A stretch of DNA of 64,000 nucleotides from Leptolyngbya sp. FACHB-261 (GCF_014696065.1 NZ_JACJPL010000026.1:682001-746000), one strand, 5' to 3'; counted from the first letter of the stretch, positions 24,633-53,896 are shown. Notes: generated from the letters alone by a model not told the origin. Made by a program: numbers and translations.

Positions 24633-27600
24633 TTAGTTTTTCGAAAGAAGGTGAGCGATGGGTTCCACTTTCTTCGAGACAGCTAATGCAATGCCAATGT
24701 TAGCTTTCTCGGCTGTCAGGTTCATTAGAGATGTCCATGCTCGGTGCTTCTCTACAGCTTGTAGGTTCTCAGGCAGGACATGCCCGTTCTTATCAAGCTT
24801 GACTCCTTTAAGGATCATCCCCCCAAGATACGCCCCTTCAAGATTCGCCCCTGCAAGATTTGCATCTTCAAGATCTGCCCCTTCAAGATACGCCCCTTCA
24901 AGATTCGCCCCTGCAAGATCTGCCCCTTCAAGATCTGCCCCTTCAAGATTCGCCCCTTCAAGATTCGCATCTTCAAGATTCGCCCCTTCAAGATTCGCAT
25001 CTTCAAGATACGCCCCTTCAAGATACGCCCCTTCAAGATTCGCCCCTTCAAGATTCGCCCCTGTAAGATTCGCCTCTATAAGAATCGCCCCTGCAAGAAT
25101 CGCCCCTTCAAGATCCGCCCCTTCAAGATTCGCCCCTGCAAGATTCGCCCCTTCAAGATCTGCCCCTTCAAGATTTGCATCTTCAAGATCTGCCCCTTCA
25201 AGAATCGCCCCTTCAAGATTCGCCTTTTTAAGAATCGCCCCTTCAAGATTCGCCTTTTTAAGATTCGCCCTTGCAAGATTCGCCCTTGCAAGATTCGCCC
25301 TTGCAAGATTCGCCCCTTCAAGATTCGCCGCTCCAAGATTCGCCTCTCTAAGATTCGCCTTTCTAAGATTCACCTCAACAAAATCTCTCAAAAATAGAAT
25401 GCATCCTGATAAATTCAGAAAGCTGAGGCAGTTTAAGGCTAGTACATCAGCAAGAACTCTCTGCCCATGTAGCCTTGAAAGCCATTCACCAAAAGCGACA
25501 GGGGAAGGCCAATCAATCTCTGAAACAATCTGTGTTTGGATAGCACAGGCATTGAGCATAACCAGTAATGCCTCCTCTGCGTTACGAGCTTGGCGATTTG
25601 CTTCGTAAAAAGTGGGGATTGTGGAAATCAAAGTTTCCATTGGCATCCCATTTTGAAGCATGTACCTGATTAGACAGCATAAAACCTGTTGCCAGTGCCT
25701 CACTTCCTCGGGCTGCTGGGTATAAGCTAGGTGGACTTCGTCTCGAACAAACCTTAACAGGTCAAAATCGATAGCTGTAGGACCGCATAGACGTACCCAT
25801 ATCTGAAGCAATTCTTGCTCACTCCGACCTTGACGCGGATTTCGTCGATAGCGTTTTAGTTCCTCACAAATATTTTCAACTTCACCAACAATCTTCCTTG
25901 TTGTTAGATATTCGCCGAAACTCTTGTGTGTGAATTCAAAAGTATTCTCCCCCTGCTCAGAGGAACCACTGCGCCTGAAGTAAAAGGCTATCAAGAGATT
26001 AGTGACTCCTGACTCCGCACTTTGGCTAAATGCTTCCAGAGAATCAGCTAGTTTACACTCTTTTAAACGTTTTTGAATCTCTTGTAGAGTTGCTGTTCTC
26101 CCATTACCATGCCAAACAGTCAAACCGATCTCCTCAAGCACCTGTGTAAATTCTTCCTCAGATATCTTGTCAAGAGTAGGATGTTGCTCGTCAGTCCAGA
26201 CTCGCTTATAGATTGACTGGAGCAAGCCCCCGTAGATTCCGTTCAGGTTAATCTCTCCAGTCAGATTTAATTCGCCACGATTGAAAGCCAGGGCGACTAG
26301 ATAGTTAAGTAGAGGTTGAGACGTAATCTCTGTGAGATCGTCTCGATTAAGCTCTGATGGCAGTGCTGCATAGTCCTTGCCATTAGCTTTGCCGTAAAGC
26401 TCCCACCAAGATTGACGCTGATCTTGCCCTAAAAGGCTATTCAAATCAATAAATCTTTCTCTCTCATTCTTGGGAAGAAAATAAGGTAGAACATGGAGGA
26501 TCTGTCCCAGCCTTTTCAGCTTCCTCTCATGGTCTTGAATGACCAGATCGCGGCTACTAATCAAAACTTGTAGCCGAGTTTTGTCTCTATTAAGGCTCAG
26601 CAACTGATTGCAGACTTCATCGATAAACTGTTGAGCTGCTTCCGTCACTGCCTTGCCCTGCATTGCTAACTCATCTAAGCCGTCAAAGATGATTAACAGT
26701 CGAGATTCACCATGCTCATGATCTAAAGGATTGCGGCTAAGGAAATGCTCAGAGCGCACAAACTTGCCAACTGCCTCAACTAAATCATCAGAGATCTTAA
26801 AACGGTGTAAGGGAATCAGTAAGACTGGAATTTGGGCTTTCTCTGCCTGTTTTGCAGCAAAAGCTTTAGTGAATGAAGACTTTCCAGATCCCGGCCCACC
26901 GCTAATGACCCGAATCCAATCCTTGGGAGCAGCCTTCCCTAACCAAGCTTCTAACTCACGCTCCAAATCAACAACGACTTTCTCAAATTTTGCCTTTTCA
27001 AGGCTGGAACGCGGTTCTTGCTCCCCCTGACCTTTTTCTCTTTCGTAATAAGCTCTTGGCGCTATATAGACCTGACTCAAGCTAAAAGCTTCAGTAAGGA
27101 GCGGCTTGTCGATCTCTTTTTGCAGCCAAGCTGAGTAAGATCTCCAACCCTGCTCCTGCTTAGCTGAGTCAGTAAATGGTGTCTGCGATGGTTTTAAACA
27201 GGCATAAACCTCAGGATGCTCAGCCCACTCCTCGTCTAAAGCACAGGTAAAATAGCTGGGGAACCGCGCTGCGATTGTATTAGCCTCAGACTGAGACAAA
27301 CCAAACGCCCGCAGCCATTGAACAAAAGGCTTCTGTATCGTCTTTGTTAGCGCTGACGCCTTGGGATTATCAAAAAACTGTGGATCAATTACTATTCCAC
27401 GCATCTCTAAAGTCGAAGCCAATTCCTCGCAGACCCCTTCAAAATCCTTGGTCTGATGAGTCTGTGACGTTGGTCTTTCCTGCATTAAGTCACGCATTGC
27501 TCGAAACAGAGAACGTGCAACTAGAGCCCAAGCAACTTCTTCGGGCTTTTTATCAAGACCCAGTGCTGCCGCTGCATCAATTAAGTTATCTGGAACACTC

Positions 27601-27731
27601 TCTAGCTTGTTGGTAGTAACATTAACTGCCGTCTTTGTTAATGCTTTGAAGAGTTCTTTAAAGTCTAATTTGACAGGTTTGTATAGGAACGAGACTGGCT
27701 GCTTGATGGGAGTGCTGTCACTGCTGCTCAT
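24633..27731 (-). CDS. NACHT-type STAND NTPase with C-terminal pentapeptide repeats
   Basis: This is a 1032-residue NLR-like protein. The N-terminal helical region (about 20-90) resembles helical effector or adaptor domains that precede bacterial NACHT modules; 100-270 is helical and unassigned. The NTPase has Walker A GGPGSGKSS (278-286), Walker B LLIIFDGLDEL (345-355) and sensor-like ISSRD (391-395). A winged-helix segment has the family motif FEFTHKSFGEYL (598-609). About 38 pentapeptide repeats of A(N/D)LEG type form a quadrilateral beta-helix (787-978), and a basic tail ends it. Known bacterial NACHT proteins can act in phage defence, with the C-terminal repeats as sensor. No nuclease, protease or TIR effector domain is obvious. 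Third codon positions are AT-richer than in the flanking genes, which suggests separate acquisition. Confidence 0.88.
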   Translation of the reverse strand: MSSSDSTPIKQPVSFLYKPVKLDFKELFKALTKTAVNVTTNKLESVPDNLIDAAAALGLDKKPEEVAWALVARSLFRAMRDLMQERPTSQTHQTKDFEGVCEELASTLEMRGIVIDPQFFDNPKASALTKTIQKPFVQWLRAFGLSQSEANTIAARFPSYFTCALDEEWAEHPEVYACLKPSQTPFTDSAKQEQGWRSYSAWLQKEIDKPLLTEAFSLSQVYIAPRAYYEREKGQGEQEPRSSLEKAKFEKVVVDLERELEAWLGKAAPKDWIRVISGGPGSGKSSFTKAFAAKQAEKAQIPVLLIPLHRFKISDDLVEAVGKFVRSEHFLSRNPLDHEHGESRLLIIFDGLDELAMQGKAVTEAAQQFIDEVCNQLLSLNRDKTRLQVLISSRDLVIQDHERKLKRLGQILHVLPYFLPKNERERFIDLNSLLGQDQRQSWWELYGKANGKDYAALPSELNRDDLTEITSQPLLNYLVALAFNRGELNLTGEINLNGIYGGLLQSIYKRVWTDEQHPTLDKISEEEFTQVLEEIGLTVWHGNGRTATLQEIQKRLKECKLADSLEAFSQSAESGVTNLLIAFYFRRSGSSEQGENTFEFTHKSFGEYLTTRKIVGEVENICEELKRYRRNPRQGRSEQELLQIWVRLCGPTAIDFDLLRFVRDEVHLAYTQQPEEVRHWQQVLCCLIRYMLQNGMPMETLISTIPTFYEANRQARNAEEALLVMLNACAIQTQIVSEIDWPSPVAFGEWLSRLHGQRVLADVLALNCLSFLNLSGCILFLRDFVEVNLRKANLREANLGAANLEGANLARANLARANLARANLKKANLEGAILKKANLEGAILEGADLEDANLEGADLEGANLAGANLEGADLEGAILAGAILIEANLTGANLEGANLEGAYLEGAYLEDANLEGANLEDANLEGANLEGADLEGADLAGANLEGAYLEGADLEDANLAGANLEGAYLGGMILKGVKLDKNGHVLPENLQAVEKHRAWTSLMNLTAEKANIGIALAVSKKVEPIAHLLSKN
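24798..25373 (-). repeat. 15-bp tandem array encoding pentapeptide repeats
   Basis: About 38 tandem 15-bp units (top strand close to GATTCGCCCCTTCAA) cover the pentapeptide region of the NACHT gene. Units are nearly identical even at silent positions, and all six frames stay open over long stretches, so frames on the other strand here are by-products of the repeat. Confidence 0.92.
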
Positions 27732-47786: not shown

Positions 47787-48326
47787 ATGTTCAAACGTTT
47801 GTTAGTCCTATTGACCCTGGCTTTGACCCTGAGCAGCTGTGTGACTCAGGCCACTGCTGGCCTGAACTCCTTTGTGGATGGCCAGGACGGCTATGAGTTT
47901 CTATACCCCCTAGGTTGGGTGCAAACCCAACTTGCTAATGGCCCTGATGTTCTGTTTCGAGACTTCATTGAGCAGACTGAGAACGTCAGTGTCGTCATCG
48001 GCGATTTGAGCGACCCACAGGCCAGCCTAAGTGACTTGGGCAGTCCTACAGATGTTGGCCAACGCATGTCTCAGAAAGTCATCGCGCCTCCTGGTTCAGA
48101 TCGCCAGGCAGAGCTGATCAGTGCCCGTCAGCACACCAACGGCAACCATGACTACTATGTGTTGGAATATGCAGTCAACGCTCGTGGCCAACAACGCCAC
48201 GAACTGGTAAGTGTTGTCACTAGCCGAGGCAAGCTGTTTACGTTCAGCGCCTCCACCTTAGAGCGTCGCTGGCCCAAGATTCAGGAGTTATTAGGTCGTG
48301 TAGTCGAGTCCTTCACGGTTTATTAA
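47787..48326 (+). CDS. psbP: PsbP-like lipoprotein (CyanoP)
   Basis: This 179-residue lumenal lipoprotein has signal and lipobox TLSSC (about residues 14-18). The PsbP fold follows, beginning DGYEFLYPLGWVQ with PDVLFRDFIEQTENVSVVI and ending VVTSRGKLFTFSAST. CyanoP binds photosystem II during early assembly. AAGGGAG lies 6 bases before the ATG. The sequence TATATT upstream (about 47747) could be a -10 element. Divergent from the NmrA-like gene. Confidence 0.93.
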   Translation: MFKRLLVLLTLALTLSSCVTQATAGLNSFVDGQDGYEFLYPLGWVQTQLANGPDVLFRDFIEQTENVSVVIGDLSDPQASLSDLGSPTDVGQRMSQKVIAPPGSDRQAELISARQHTNGNHDYYVLEYAVNARGQQRHELVSVVTSRGKLFTFSASTLERRWPKIQELLGRVVESFTVY

Positions 48327-48486
48327 GCCTTCAGGGTTGACCAAGTAAGTTTATTGAGCTGACAAAGCTGCGCAGCCTTGCTGCTGGGGACAGAGCCATA
48401 GGGACTCTAAAGCAGGAACCCTTCTCAACCCCGTGGCTCAGCAGCTTTGTTGTTGGTTTAGCTGTTGGTTCGGCTGTTATGCCGGT

Positions 48487-48837
48487 TTAGCCAAACCAGC
48501 TTGAAGGAACCGCTTCAGCTTTAAACTTGTGGGGAATGTGGTTACTGACCCACTCACAGTTGCGCTCCAAGATACATTGAATGCCATCGTGTACTGCCTC
48601 GCGCAGCCGCTGCTGCACAGGATGGGGGACCAACACCCGATTCTCCTCTAGGGGAGAACTCTGCTCCACCAAGCCGTAACAGACTGGCACTCGGTTAAGC
48701 ACATAACTCGCCAACTGAACTCGTAAGTCGGGATTAGCGAAGGCTTCGTGATAAGGGTGGGATGGGTAAGTATCTAACGCTTTTTCAATCTCTTGGTTAA
48801 CCAAAGGTAAAACGAGATTCTCAATGCTCTTTGTCAT
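48487..48837 (-). CDS. ComFB-like protein
   Basis: This 116-residue protein starts at ATG 48837, chosen because GGAGG lies 5 bases upstream. It resembles the late-competence ComFB family: ENLVLPLVNQEIEKAL at the start, the ASYVLNRVPVCYGLVE core, and a helical HPVQQRLREAVHDGIQCIL end. Cyanobacterial ComFB proteins bind cyclic di-nucleotides and affect motility and cell size. This is a moderate match, and key binding residues cannot be checked. It lies near the GTPase/DUF4388 genes on the same strand. Confidence 0.6.
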   Translation of the reverse strand: MTKSIENLVLPLVNQEIEKALDTYPSHPYHEAFANPDLRVQLASYVLNRVPVCYGLVEQSSPLEENRVLVPHPVQQRLREAVHDGIQCILERNCEWVSNHIPHKFKAEAVPSSWFG

Positions 48838-49089
48838 AGCTGCCTCCAATGGAAAATCCTAATGGGCAGAACCTCTAATGCTGTTTCTGATTGTGAAATT
48901 CAGCAAACAAGATGAGAGGTGGAAAGGGGGATCGCCCACCTGGAGCCTGTTCCCGCCTTCTAATTTTCCACCTTCAGGATACAGCGCTCTGATTGTTCGT
49001 GATGAACTTATAACCGTTCTTTACAAGCAGTGTGAGGGAGCAAATGCCATGTTCTATACAGCACAAGGATTTAATGCCTCAGAACAAAC

Positions 49090-49626
49090 TTATGCCCGAA
49101 CTTGAACACTCATCATATGTTGCAGTAAAGTAACCAGAGCTTCGCTCACTGAACTACTGTTATTAGCATCGACAGGGATAATTGGTGGATAGTCGCTGCC
49201 GTAGCCTAGGGCTAGAGTCAGGTCTTCTGCAGACCAAGCTCCCTCACAATCCATGTGGGTCATGCCAATCACGAGAGGAATACTGGCTCGTTGGCTCATG
49301 AAGTTCAGGATACTGCGAGCAGCCCGAAATTCAGCTGGACGGTGCGCAGCGACCAACAGGACATAAGCGTGGGCACGGCGGATCAATATATCCCACATGA
49401 AATCAAAGCGAGTTTGTCCAGGTGTTCCATAGACATGCAGAGCCATCTCTGGACCGAAGCTCAACCGGCCGAAGTCAAAGGCCACTGTGGTTTTGCGCTT
49501 TAGTTGAGCAGTTTCATCAGTTGCCCGTTCGTCGGTGTCAACGACCTCAATCTCACTGATGGAGCGGATGAAGGTAGATTTGCCTGCCCCGACCGGCCCA
49601 GTCACGACAATCCGCAGAATTTCCAT
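49090..49626 (-). CDS. Ras-like small GTPase (MglA-related)
   Basis: This 178-residue P-loop GTPase has G1 GPVGAGKST (10-18), a switch-I-like region with the Thr pair in KRKTTVAFDFG (43-53), G3 GTPGQTRFDF (67-76, PGQ in place of AGQ/GGQ) and G4 THMD (123-126). Close relatives include MglA-type polarity switches and GTPases beside roadblock proteins. Its ATG overlaps the last base of the DUF4388 stop (TAATG), so the two are coupled. An MglB-type roadblock gene is encoded 2 kb upstream on the same strand. Confidence 0.88.
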   Translation of the reverse strand: MEILRIVVTGPVGAGKSTFIRSISEIEVVDTDERATDETAQLKRKTTVAFDFGRLSFGPEMALHVYGTPGQTRFDFMWDILIRRAHAYVLLVAAHRPAEFRAARSILNFMSQRASIPLVIGMTHMDCEGAWSAEDLTLALGYGSDYPPIIPVDANNSSSVSEALVTLLQHMMSVQVRA

Positions 49627-50504
49627 TAGCCGCGTCCTCCTTTGAGAAAGCCAACCAAGCTAGAGAGAAAGGCATTGCTGGGTGCTGGGGAACCAGAGTT
49701 AGGTTCAGCGGTTCGGGCAGCAGGAGTAACGGCAGGCAAGGGCTCGATGGTGTTGAGCACAGGTTCAGCCATCGCGGTTGGAATTTCATCCACCAGTCCG
49801 ACTGCCATCAAACGGAAAGCTGCCTGTTGGAGCTTGGCTAAAGACGTATTGAGTTGCGCTGCAATTGCCTCTATCGTGTGGCTGCTGTCAGCAAACTCCC
49901 ACACCTGCCATTCCAATGCCTCCAGTTTGAGGTTGGGCTTACCGACACTGCGCAAAGTAGAGGTGGGGGCAGGCAGCTTAGCCTCCAGCATGGCCCAGTC
50001 TTGCACCCAACGTAGGCCATTGAGAGCAGCTTCACCTGCACGAATGCTTAAACCTGTCATTAGGCTATAGTTGAGTGCAGTTGAAGTCTCTAAACAGAAG
50101 CGTCCATCTGGTACCTGAAAAAGCTTATAGACTCCCTGGCGCAGCTGAAGCTTAAACAGAGCGGTTAGCTGATCCGCTTGTAGAGCACCTTGAGATTTGA
50201 GGCATAAGCCCAAAGGTGAATTGACTGCACAACGGGCACCCAACTTCTCAATACTACGGTCACTAATCCAACCACGTTGAGCCAGTAAATCAGTCAACGG
50301 TGGCACTTCACTGGCAACTTCTACTGCAACGATACGGCCTTGGTATAGCCAAATTTTATGGACTTGCAACTGAGTTGAGGCTCGAAAATCTAACAGGCTA
50401 TCCAGCATGGGCTGAATAGTTAGCAAACCTGTCTTATGACCTTGGTCGACTAATTGTAATAACTCTGGCAGTGAAAAATCAGCGAGCGAACCACTTAGCG
50501 CCAT
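49626..50504 (-). CDS. DUF4388 (PATAN-type) protein
   Basis: This protein of about 292 residues starts at ATG 50504 (MALSGSLADFSLPELLQL, the typical DUF4388 start), with GGGAG about 7 bases before; an upstream Met is less likely. The DUF4388 domain covers roughly residues 1-130. A middle part resembles a winged-helix segment (AIAAQLNTSLAKLQQAAFRLMAVGLVDE), and a Pro/Ala linker ends in a hydrophobic C-terminus. PATAN/DUF4388 domains in cyanobacteria contact type IV pilus motors or GTPases. It is translationally coupled to the small GTPase. Confidence 0.85.
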   Translation of the reverse strand: MALSGSLADFSLPELLQLVDQGHKTGLLTIQPMLDSLLDFRASTQLQVHKIWLYQGRIVAVEVASEVPPLTDLLAQRGWISDRSIEKLGARCAVNSPLGLCLKSQGALQADQLTALFKLQLRQGVYKLFQVPDGRFCLETSTALNYSLMTGLSIRAGEAALNGLRWVQDWAMLEAKLPAPTSTLRSVGKPNLKLEALEWQVWEFADSSHTIEAIAAQLNTSLAKLQQAAFRLMAVGLVDEIPTAMAEPVLNTIEPLPAVTPAARTAEPNSGSPAPSNAFLSSLVGFLKGGRG

Positions 50505-50735
50505 CTCAAATCTCCCGTACAACCAGCCCTTAGGTAATCCATCAACATAGATAAAAACAAGTATTCCGCTTACTTTTGATCTTTTTCCTGCACTTGTATG
50601 TCCTCATGCTCTCAGACTGATTCAGCCTTGCTTCTCTTGAATGCAGCCTTTGTTCGGTGACAAGTTTGTCCCAGGTCTTCAAAAGCTCTTTCAATACTCC
50701 ATTGAAATTCTAGAAGACCCATAGGAGCCTCTGCC

Positions 50736-50755
50736 CCGATGCTTTTACGGAGTTT
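50736..50755 (-). promoter_or_regulatory. Shared upstream box, copy 1
   Basis: On the minus strand: AAACTCCGTAAAAGCATCGG. It lies 232 bp upstream of the DUF4388 start and matches 19 of 20 positions with the box at 52172 before the roadblock gene. It is probably a shared promoter or activator site. Confidence 0.6.
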
Positions 50756-50879
50756 TAGGGTTTTGAACAAGCCGAGTTGTTTCAAATTATTGCTGGCCTG
50801 CGTACTGCAAAATAAACTACAGACTTGTTGTTTATGTCTGAAATCGAAGTGGCACGCTGACAGTTTGATGACTCATATT

Positions 50880-50928
50880 TTGATAGCCCATGCGTTCCTA
50901 AAAATTCCTAGGAATGCATGGGCTATCA
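50880..50928. terminator. Long hairpin downstream of the globin gene
   Basis: A stem of about 20 bp with one mismatch (TGATAGCCCATGC-TTCCTA / TAGGAA-GCATGGGCTATCA). It lies 82 bp after the globin stop on the minus strand. No T-run follows, so it may stabilise or end the roadblock-globin transcript. Confidence 0.55.
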
Positions 50929-51010
50929 AGGCTACCTCTGGTTTTAGTAGCGATTACGGTAGATAAAAACTAAGAGGCTTCCCAACCCATGAAGAGTGTC
51001 AGGTTAGGTT

Positions 51011-51565
51011 CTATAGGGTAGACGCACCAGTAGAGACCAAACGCTTGAACAGACCTTCTGTCCAACCTGTTTCTTTCTGAACTGCGTTATAAGCCACTTC
51101 CATGTAGGCCTGTTCGATGAACGCTAGGTCGATCATGGCAATGGTTCCTAAGGCTTCGCGAAGTGCTTCTGGCTTCTCAGCTTGCAGCAAACGCTTGCCG
51201 AACTCTTGGACAACGATAGCCATAGCAGGCACAACATGCTGAGGGCCAATGCCAATCTGCACATGGACTAAGCCTACACGCCAACGACGCTCAGCATAGG
51301 CCTCTCCCCAGTTGTCCATGCCAGTGAACATTTCATGGAACCACTGAACAAAGGTGCTGTGCAGACGATGCATCGAGCCTTCTTTCTTGTTTAGAACTGA
51401 ATTCATCTCGGGATCCCGACCCAGATATTCATAAAAATGGTTGGCCATATCGGGAGCGAGGGCCAGAGCCCAATCGGTGTTCTCCTTCAGAAGAGCCTGA
51501 TGGTCGGCAGAGAAACCAGTGCGGGTCTTCAGTGCAATCAATAGAGTTTGAGCATCAATGGACAT
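51011..51565 (-). CDS. Single-domain sensor globin (protoglobin type)
   Basis: This 184-residue protein is built like the globin domain of globin-coupled sensors. A helical N-terminus is followed by ERRWRVGLVHVQIGIGPQHVVPAM, in which His101 fits the proximal heme ligand position of the GxVHxxIGL motif. There is no transmitter or cyclase domain, so it must act on a partner. It sits 94 bp downstream of the roadblock gene and upstream of the DUF4388/GTPase pair, all on the minus strand. A role as an oxygen, NO or redox input to that switch is inferred. Heme binding is not shown. Confidence 0.82.
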   Translation of the reverse strand: MSIDAQTLLIALKTRTGFSADHQALLKENTDWALALAPDMANHFYEYLGRDPEMNSVLNKKEGSMHRLHSTFVQWFHEMFTGMDNWGEAYAERRWRVGLVHVQIGIGPQHVVPAMAIVVQEFGKRLLQAEKPEALREALGTIAMIDLAFIEQAYMEVAYNAVQKETGWTEGLFKRLVSTGASTL

Positions 51566-51659
51566 AGTAAATCCTTGGTGGCGCCTTAGCCGACTAGTAG
51601 ATCAAGAAACTTCAGTGACGTCAGTTGAAATGGGATGGAATAGAGAAATGTCGCTTTAT

Positions 51660-52028
51660 CTAGCCGAGCAGAGCCGTAATTTCTCCAACAACCCGCTTGA
51701 TTTCTAAAAAGACCAATCCCTGCTTAGCAGCTGCACTAGCCAGCACTAGCAGTACTGCATCCGCATTGCACCCGACCAGAATGCCGTAGCCCTTCTCCCC
51801 TTGCACAAACACTCGGTCAATTTCTCCACGAGCCAGTTCTGCACAGATGCGCTCACCCAAGGAGAGCATGGCAGCAGACATAGCGGAGGTTCGCTCCTCA
51901 TCCATACCGCCAGGCAGAGCAGCAGCTAGAGAGAGGCCATCGGGTGAAACTAGAATTGAGCCTTGAATATCAGGTGTACTGCTGACGAAGTTTTGCAGCA
52001 CCGTTGTCAGTGCATTAATGTTAACCAT
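51660..52028 (-). CDS. Roadblock/LC7 domain protein (MglB-like)
   Basis: This 122-residue protein is essentially one roadblock/LC7 domain: LQNFVSSTPDIQGSILVSPDGLSLAAALP, then EERTSAMSAAMLSLGERICAEL and a beta strand RVFVQGEKGYGILVGC. Stand-alone bacterial roadblock proteins such as MglB dimerise and act as GTPase-activating partners of MglA-type GTPases. A small GTPase is encoded 2 kb downstream on the same strand. The 20-bp box at 52172 lies 144 bp upstream. Confidence 0.88.
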   Translation of the reverse strand: MVNINALTTVLQNFVSSTPDIQGSILVSPDGLSLAAALPGGMDEERTSAMSAAMLSLGERICAELARGEIDRVFVQGEKGYGILVGCNADAVLLVLASAAAKQGLVFLEIKRVVGEITALLG

Positions 52029-52171
52029 GCTCGTAGATCCTTAGGTCCTCAGATTTATTGAGCCTTGCTTCTGTTGATAAAGCGTTTACCTGGCTAAGTC
52101 AGGTTTCAAAGCGTTTAGTGCAATCAGCTAAGCTACGTTTGAATCGTAGTAAGTTAATGAGAAGAATCACA

Positions 52172-52191
52172 CCGATGCTTCTACGGAGTTT
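52172..52191 (-). promoter_or_regulatory. Shared upstream box, copy 2
   Basis: On the minus strand: AAACTCCGTAGAAGCATCGG, upstream of the roadblock gene. It differs at one position from the box upstream of the DUF4388 gene. Confidence 0.6.
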
Positions 52192-52411
52192 CCAAAATTC
52201 TTTCCCTACAAAGTATTTCGAACTGTGTTCTTTCTTGTCAGAAGAATGCGGGCGTAAACTTTCGCAAAACCAACTTGCGATCTGTCTGTAATGTCTCTCC
52301 CTATGTTGGGAATAATGGCCAGCTTCGTAACCCACGGTCCAGCAAACACCTAATTTTTTGCAGAAAAATTGTATAAATACCCAGCTCAATTGTTTATGCT
52401 TAGAATCTTGA

Positions 52412-52839
52412 TTAAGTATTAAGCCATTGCTGGGATGGTAGAAGTGCCTTCTGGATCAGCGCAAAGCCACAGTCTTCAGCAGTTTCTGCGCACTCTGTTT
52501 TAGCTTTTTGACCAACTTCTGTATCAATTGCCTGTGAGTCATTGAGACAACTGAGCGTATTTACTGAACCAGCTAGGTTTATATCTATCGTTACACCTGT
52601 TTCAGCGCGTTTTAGTAACAAACCTCAATAGTGGTAATTTCTAGTTTGTGATACTCATGAGCCTCCGGTTGTTTGGTTTGGGGAGATAGCTCAGGCATGG
52701 CCAGGGCCCGAGCATCGATAGGGTCAGTTATGTTGGTCTGCTGCGAAGAAGACATCGCCTGAACTGTCAGGCTATTCGCCTCAATAGCGGCGAATAGCTC
52801 AGGGAAGGACTGAGTTGCAGGTCTTCCCTGCCAGAACAT
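52412..52839 (-). other. Two overlapping short frames of doubtful coding value
   Basis: Within the 866-bp gap before pheS (52029-52894), a 75-codon frame (52839-52612) and a 69-codon TTG frame (52621-52412) overlap on the minus strand in different phases. Neither has a good ribosome-binding site or a known domain. If joined by a frameshift they would give a 140-residue protein. The evidence is too weak to call a gene. Nothing else was seen in the gap apart from the shared box. Confidence 0.2.
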
Positions 52840-52894
52840 CCAGGATTCGCGTCATACTAGCTAGAGAAGACTTGCTACTCGTCCGTGTCCTCCC

Positions 52895-53896
52895 ATGACC
52901 TCTGCCCCTCTTAGCCTCGACGCTCAGTTACAGGCACTCCGTGCCGGTGCCCTGGATGCCGTGGAGCAAGCTAGTTCTCTTGATCAATTGGAGCAACTGC
53001 GAGTTAGCTACCTGGGTAAAAAGGGTCAGCTTTCCGCTGTGCTTGGTGGCATGGGCAAACTTTCCGCTGAGGAACGTCCTCGCATTGGTGCCCTCGCCAA
53101 TGATGTTAAGGAGGCCGTTCAGGCAGCTCTAGAACAACGCCGCACTAGCTTAGAGCAGGCGCAAGTTCAGGCTCAGCTGGAAGCTGAAACTCTAGATGTC
53201 ACTATGCCGGGTCCTTACCGACCCCAAGGTCAGCTTCATCCCCTCAATAGCACCCTGGATCGCATCCTTGATATCTTCGTGGGCTTGGGCTACACGGTGG
53301 CGGCGGGTCCAGAAATTGAGACGGATTACTACAACTTCGAGGCACTGAATACCCCTGCCGACCACCCAGCACGGGATATGCAGGACACGTTCTACTTATC
53401 CGACGGCCACCTGCTGCGGACACAGACCTCGGCCATGCAGATTCACTACATGGAGGAGAATGAGCCGCCGCTTCGGGTGGTTCTGCCTGGTCGTACCTAC
53501 CGCCGAGATACTGTTGATGCCACCCACTCAGCGATTTTCCATCAGGTTGAAATCCTTGCTGTTGATGAAGGGCTAACTTTCACAGACCTGAAGGGCACGG
53601 TTAAAACCTTTCTCGAAGAGATTTTTGGCGAGCGCCCGATCCGCTTCCGTGCCAGCTACTTTCCTTTCACCGAACCCTCGGCTGAGGTGGACGTGGAGTG
53701 GAAGGGCCGCTGGTTAGAGGTGATGGGCTGTGGCATGGTTGACCCCAATGTTCTGAAGGTGGTGGGCTATGACCCGGAGCAGGTTACTGGCTTTGCCGCT
53801 GGCTTGGGTCTAGAGCGACTGGCTATGGTCCTACACGAAATAGATGACATCCGTCGCCTCTACACCAGTGACTTGCGCTTCCTGCGGCAGTTCTAG
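52895..53896 (+). CDS. pheS: Phenylalanyl-tRNA synthetase alpha subunit
   Basis: PheS is the catalytic subunit that charges tRNA(Phe). This 333-residue protein has an N-terminal coiled coil (about 1-95), motif 2 ([23 protein letters not shown] segment) and motif 3 ([14 protein letters not shown]). It starts at ATG 52895. pheT is not adjacent, as is common in cyanobacteria. A 14-bp inverted repeat follows. Confidence 0.96.

Follow-up and report, generated by a model that had tools for sequence, protein, structure and literature searches.

The DNA analysed here, a window of 64,000 nucleotides from Leptolyngbya sp. FACHB-261, carries between positions 49,090 and 52,028 four minus-strand genes in the order roadblock/LC7 protein, globin, DUF4388 protein and small GTPase. 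A sequence-only reading of the window had described this arrangement, and gene calls and Pfam matches bear it out in each particular. The last two genes overlap, with TAATG serving both to end the DUF4388 frame and to begin that of the GTPase, and the cluster is split by a gap of approximately 500 bp between its roadblock-globin and DUF4388-GTPase halves, with an inverted repeat inside the gap (Table 1). We refer to the four genes together as the cassette.

Table 1. Features of the cassette, with the fifth gene that accompanies it in other genomes; positions are those of the window unless a locus is named.
Feature	Position	Strand	Basis or remark
Roadblock/LC7 protein, 122 aa	51660..52028	-	PF03259 E 2e-14; CvnB/MglB-like
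Single-domain protoglobin, 184 aa, predicted heme sensor	51011..51565	-	PF11563 E 2e-20; 8h17 E 4e-72
Globin C-terminal tail past the Pfam domain, residues 157-184	51011..51097	-	Carries motif TGxSxxLFxRL; may be a docking segment
DUF4388 (PATAN-like) protein, 292 aa	49626..50504	-	PF14332 E 4e-25
Winged-helix segment of DUF4388 protein, residues 196-241	49782..49919	-	AlphaFold2 model, hhalign; faint resemblance to CvnC; may take part in nucleotide exchange
Conserved C-terminal amphipathic helix of DUF4388 protein, SxSFLxxLVxFLxxK	49641..49676	-	Alignment, model
Ras-like small GTPase, 178 aa, MglA Groups 2-5 type	49090..49626	-	P-loop, TTV, GTPGQ, THxD; PF03029 and Ras matches
Upstream region of roadblock	52030..52191	-	Homologous to DUF4388 upstream region
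Upstream region of the DUF4388-GTPase half	50593..50755	-	Homologous to roadblock upstream region
Inverted repeat in the globin-DUF4388 gap, with 21-nt arms around an 8-nt loop	50880..50929	.	
Fifth gene, ~160 aa	L028:8682-9173, L024:6534-7037, L068:7957-8439		Sequence SELGDFSSIVCFKAVVVG...GEKAAAIALIAAGRxRGK

The DUF4388 gene most likely starts at the ATG at 50504, since its homologues begin there and align with this start better than with the TTG at 50522. The regions upstream of the roadblock and DUF4388 genes are homologous to one another (48 nt at 77% and 20 nt at 95% identity, at offsets of 1437 and 1436, in one register), and the two halves of the cluster may therefore be co-regulated through these two copies. 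The roadblock-type leader is absent from the other roadblock copies of this genome. The inverted repeat was considered as a terminator, and dropped when a terminator scan made no such call. A ComFB-like protein is encoded directly downstream of the cassette (48487-48849); it was rejected as a cassette member, its Pfam match being below the cut-off and cassette loci having no counterpart, and it is not conserved at that place. Elsewhere in the window, positions 24633-27731 encode an NTPase-like protein with a long pentapeptide-repeat stretch, with repeat-derived open frames on the opposite strand.

The globin matches the protoglobin family PF11563 with 73.8 bits, against a cut-off of 25. The proximal-type His101 picked out in the sequence-only reading is present and invariant in 20/20 homologues, and Tyr45, which we take to occupy the position of the distal Tyr in known O2 sensors such as AfGcHK, is likewise invariant in the alignment of all 20 cyanobacterial globins. 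The closest solved structure is that of an orthologue, Tlr1989 of Thermosynechococcus (PDB 8H17); the globin of the matching genome, G089, is identical to Tlr1989 over the aligned part and lies inside a four-gene cassette. Our search found no functional paper on Tlr1989 and none linking it to its neighbours. Past the Pfam domain the globin ends in a tail whose motif keeps its Gly and Leu in 24 of 24 cassette globins from five phyla, and which is missing from three non-cassette globins of the phylum. When the globin profile was compared with solved globins only 8H17 matched through the tail, the others stopping at column 159 or before. We regard the tail as a candidate docking segment. One cassette globin, from Caldiserica (L151:4855-5427), lacks the proximal His and may be heme-free, so that heme may not be universal among cassette globins.

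The GTPase has the P-loop GPVGAGKS, and its GTPGQ and TTV motifs are invariant in 19/19. Its G4 motif is THxD, with T/S-H/Y-x-D across all aligned rows and not the [NT]KxD of MglA Group 5. The marks of classical Group 1 MglA, TVPGQ and an intrinsic Arg finger, are absent, with GTPGQ and Thr found instead. As MglA Groups 2-5 have GTPGQ in G3 and a Thr replacing the Group 1 Arg in G2 (PMC4316618), these residues support placing the GTPase in Groups 2-5; the MglA/MglB-type assignment made earlier thus stands at that level and falls for classical Group 1 MglA. A model of the GTPase (pLDDT 81) resembles the folds of Arf, Rab and MglA at a TM score of approximately 0.7. An MglB homologue lies within four genes of it, the roadblock gene being three genes away, and the two are linked in all cassette loci. 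The roadblock profile matches Robl_LC7 chains in the PDB and CvnB5 (3leq, E 4e-14), and its Asp30-Gly31 is invariant in 18/18. Such an Asp-Gly pair marks the roadblock partners of Group 2-5 MglA (PMC4316618), and the roadblock protein is predicted to be the GTPase-activating partner.

The DUF4388 protein matches PF14332 with 88.8 bits (cut-off 25), and its AlphaFold2 model (pLDDT 83) has an N-terminal PATAN-like domain, a winged helix, a disordered linker and a short C-terminal helix; relatives from Chloroflexota and Aquificota likewise end in helices. Alignment of the winged helix to CvnC with hhalign gave a probability of 13% with the cyanobacterial rows and of 45% and 65% with wider sets, with 0.1% for a reversed control. 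Winged helices are common, and the resemblance to CvnC is faint and serves as a lead only. Pfam gave no DUF742 match in this protein, a Foldseek search with the model returned nothing better than E 0.02, and comparison of its profile with solved structures gave no useful match. SopA of M. xanthus was considered as a parallel for the DUF4388 protein and dropped on reading the literature.

The sequence-only reading had proposed a search for co-occurrence of the four families, and this brought out a conserved neighbourhood. Across a sample of 194 genomes of the phylum, globin matches occur in 18 and GTPase matches in 19, and every one of the 18 globin genomes has the GTPase. This co-occurrence covers nine cyanobacterial families, and its hypergeometric P values (approximately 2e-24 by genome and 2e-14 by genus) overstate independence because the sampled genomes are related. 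Strong roadblock matches fall in the globin/GTPase genomes, and DUF4388 matches occur in 20/194. In 18/18 globin genomes all four genes lie together (the window and 17 further loci), spanning 2.4 to 3.4 kb. Because of this near-perfect co-occurrence, and linkage within 3.4 kb, across 194 genomes, the four genes are one conserved unit and not a chance assembly. Eight gene orders are found among 19 loci, loci of other phyla included; with the order shuffled and the set intact, a functional bond is favoured over plain inheritance of a block. Within the class, every above-cut-off match to the Pfam protoglobin model sits in the 18 cassette genomes, and the 3 further genomes with such matches belong to other classes and encode large fused proteins. 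A protoglobin match in G121 was rejected (20.9 bits, an internal stop and no cassette). Most of the 194 sampled genomes are without the cassette.

Several related arrangements accompany this pattern. Modules without the globin exist in G091, as a second copy in G060, and at a second locus of the window's own genome (L066, G000:C27:584000-603000), where divergent DUF4388-GTPase and roadblock-GTPase pairs are found; the third roadblock gene of this genome is solitary on contig C18. Stand-alone second globins that keep the tail occur in the cassette genomes G072, G153, G048, G064 and G074 (L038-L040, L069, L070). Many cassettes contain or adjoin a fifth gene that has no Pfam match; its product of ~160 aa is found in 13/194 genomes, 11 of which also carry the GTPase (P ~2e-11), and in the window genome it is encoded on another contig (G000:C24:168548-169012). 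Hydrogenase-maturation-like genes adjoin the cassette in L027 (1414-8891), and a hypB-like gene lies near another cassette (L175:8308-9162).

Beyond the phylum, a GTDB genome scan with the GTPase was used to list the best 80 loci. Among these, the order DUF4388-GTPase-roadblock-globin is found in two Pseudoxanthomonas, in Pseudomonas citronellolis and in one WOR-3 MAG; a Caldiserica MAG has DUF4388-GTPase-globin, its contig ending there, and two methanotrophs have GTPase, roadblock and globin together. Pfam confirms 5 of the 7 non-cyanobacterial cassette globins. In the same 80 loci Chloroflexota as a rule pair DUF4388 with the GTPase and have no globin, and the roadblock and GTPase of Actinomycetota are those of the conservon. 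A plasmid collection yielded distant globin-coupled sensors only and no cassettes. In beta- and gammaproteobacteria a small Aer-like PAS protein adjoins a roadblock-GTPase pair (L123, L141, L143, L148, L149, L150, L158, L159, L168), another single-domain candidate redox sensor in the globin's place; the two methanotrophs have both PAS protein and globin.

The cyanobacterium G054 appears to have replaced its own globin with a pseudomonad-type protoglobin of the same cassette type while keeping its own GTPase. Its globin is 50-53% identical to the cassette globins of Pseudoxanthomonas and P. citronellolis and approximately 29% identical to cyanobacterial ones, whereas its GTPase stands closer to cyanobacterial GTPases (53-68% identity) than to those of the pseudomonads (40-43%); a tree agrees with the globin exchange at moderate support. 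This apparent exchange is, in our judgement, the single best evidence that the slot would need a globin. Loss of the neighbourhood in related genomes, which the sequence-only reading had named first among the results that would count against it, is not what we see: the set recurs across families and phyla, and a different protoglobin can take the place of the globin.

The cassette shares features with several known systems. In MglA Group 5 with PATAN neighbours (Wuichet and Sogaard-Andersen, PMC4316618), the GTPase likewise has GTPGQ and a Thr in G2, the roadblock protein has the Asp-Gly pair, a PATAN protein is sometimes near, and the group is present in Cyanobacteria and Chloroflexota; proximity of MglA-type GTPases to PATAN proteins has thus already been noted. 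Globins are, however, mentioned 0 times in that paper, its Group 5 has [NT]KxD in G4 where the proteins described here have THxD, and here the set of four is near-invariant. The actinobacterial conservon (CvnA-D; MfpB-E) is likewise a set of four proteins encoded together: a sensor that is a protein of its own, a roadblock GAP, a GTPase, and a winged-helix-like partner directly before the GTPase. Its sensor is a histidine kinase, in contrast to the predicted heme globin here, and the partner here, which does not match DUF742, has a DUF4388 domain preceding its winged helix. No kinase corresponding to CvnA is present among the genes at 48300-52900, and the cassette, though conservon-like in its proposed working, is consequently no conservon. 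In HGbRL of Methylacidiphilum (PMC4476040) a heme globin is joined to a Roadblock/LC7 domain and a role in signalling has been proposed, but the protein is a two-domain fusion known from one genus only, with a globin of the flavohemoglobin lineage as opposed to a protoglobin. Globin-coupled sensors such as HemAT, AfGcHK and DosC share the branch of the globin superfamily and the heme-pocket residues, but carry globin and output domain in one fused protein, whereas the single-domain globin here has its partners encoded next door. The sequence-only reading knew of no described system with exactly this set, and this holds for the open-access papers searched, among which we found none on a protoglobin with roadblock, DUF4388 and GTPase; the partial precedents are MglA/PATAN (PMC4316618) and HGbRL (PMC4476040).

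We consider it probable that the cassette forms one signalling module, a conservon-like G-protein relay with the heme globin as its input. Gas binding or a redox change at the globin heme would alter the C-terminal tail, which would contact the roadblock dimer, the DUF4388 protein or both. The roadblock protein would speed GTP hydrolysis, as MglB and MfpD do, and the DUF4388 protein, which would carry a PATAN-like output surface, would promote nucleotide exchange through its winged helix in the manner of MfpC; in mycobacteria the CvnB homologue MfpD is reported to be a GAP and the CvnC homologue MfpC a GEF. The GTPase would be the switch. In cyanobacteria the relay would most likely act on cell polarity or on the motor of the type IV pilus, so that movement would be tuned by oxygen or redox state. 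We give the type IV pilus as output approximately even chances, and hold the case for oxygen as the ligand to be similarly balanced.

The context of globin-less relatives bears on the output. In G091 a roadblock-GTPase-DUF4388 module without globin is followed by genes for a DUF4388/PATAN-REC protein, a REC protein, CheW, a GAF-MCP and a 1212-aa CheA-like protein with Hpt. A PATAN-REC gene of the same family adjoins a second DUF4388 and roadblock pair in G072 and a lone DUF4388 gene in G078, and the window genome encodes several PATAN-REC proteins elsewhere. In Synechocystis the pilus motor is bound by proteins of the PATAN-REC type, as cited in PMC9090330. The link to pili or polarity made in the sequence-only reading accordingly has circumstantial backing from these relatives and none from the window cassette, beside which there is no pilus or taxis gene; since every motility link involves copies without the globin, it is plausible, and no more than that, that the globin cassette controls pili. 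The same globin-GTPase relay might instead act on gene expression, exopolysaccharide or a metabolic target, for example, and we regard such an output as possible if somewhat doubtful. Conservon outputs are diverse, including development, drug tolerance and secondary metabolism, no pilus gene adjoins the window cassette, and that of L027 borders the hydrogenase-maturation-like genes. To our knowledge type IV pili are near-universal in cyanobacteria; the absence of the cassette from most sampled cyanobacteria also favours an output other than motility, against which stand the PATAN-REC genes that adjoin globin-less copies in three genomes, with a complete taxis operon in one of the three.

The nature of the globin leaves room for two further readings. 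The module could work as proposed with a globin that senses NO, CO or redox state, or that in some lineages is a heme-free interaction domain, for which RsbR is a precedent (PMC4476040). The Caldiserica member without the proximal His fits the latter, but with the proximal His and distal-type Tyr invariant in 20/20 cyanobacterial rows we judge this reading rather unlikely. It is very improbable, in our view, that the globin is an enzyme or scavenger acting in NO or O2 chemistry and merely co-inherited or co-regulated with a self-standing GTPase module, even though protoglobins such as MaPgb have enzymatic activities (PMC4020757) and the globin-less modules show that the other genes occur in its absence. 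Within the class no above-cut-off protoglobin lies outside the cassette genomes, the sensor of G054 seems to have been exchanged, the pairing recurs in other phyla, the tail is conserved, and the cluster is without a reductase partner, all of which count against such a role.

Control of a bacterial Ras-like GTPase by a gas-binding heme protein that is separate from it is not known to us from any other system. Tentatively, and with more doubt than confidence, the cassette could represent a widespread and so far undescribed class of bacterial heme-sensing G-protein systems, in which a stand-alone globin would directly set the nucleotide state of the GTPase by way of the roadblock protein as GAP and the winged helix of the DUF4388 protein as exchange factor. 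Lineages could exchange the sensor, and the system would steer pilus-driven movement along oxygen gradients. Thermosynechococcus, which has been used in phototaxis work (PMC9090330), carries the cassette. The sensory inputs of MglA- and conservon-type systems have been called largely unexplored (PMC13343842); if the proposal is true, the globin would be a new type of input for them, the orphan solved globin 8H17 would gain a function, and oxygen-producing cells would have a route by which to tune their behaviour to oxygen.
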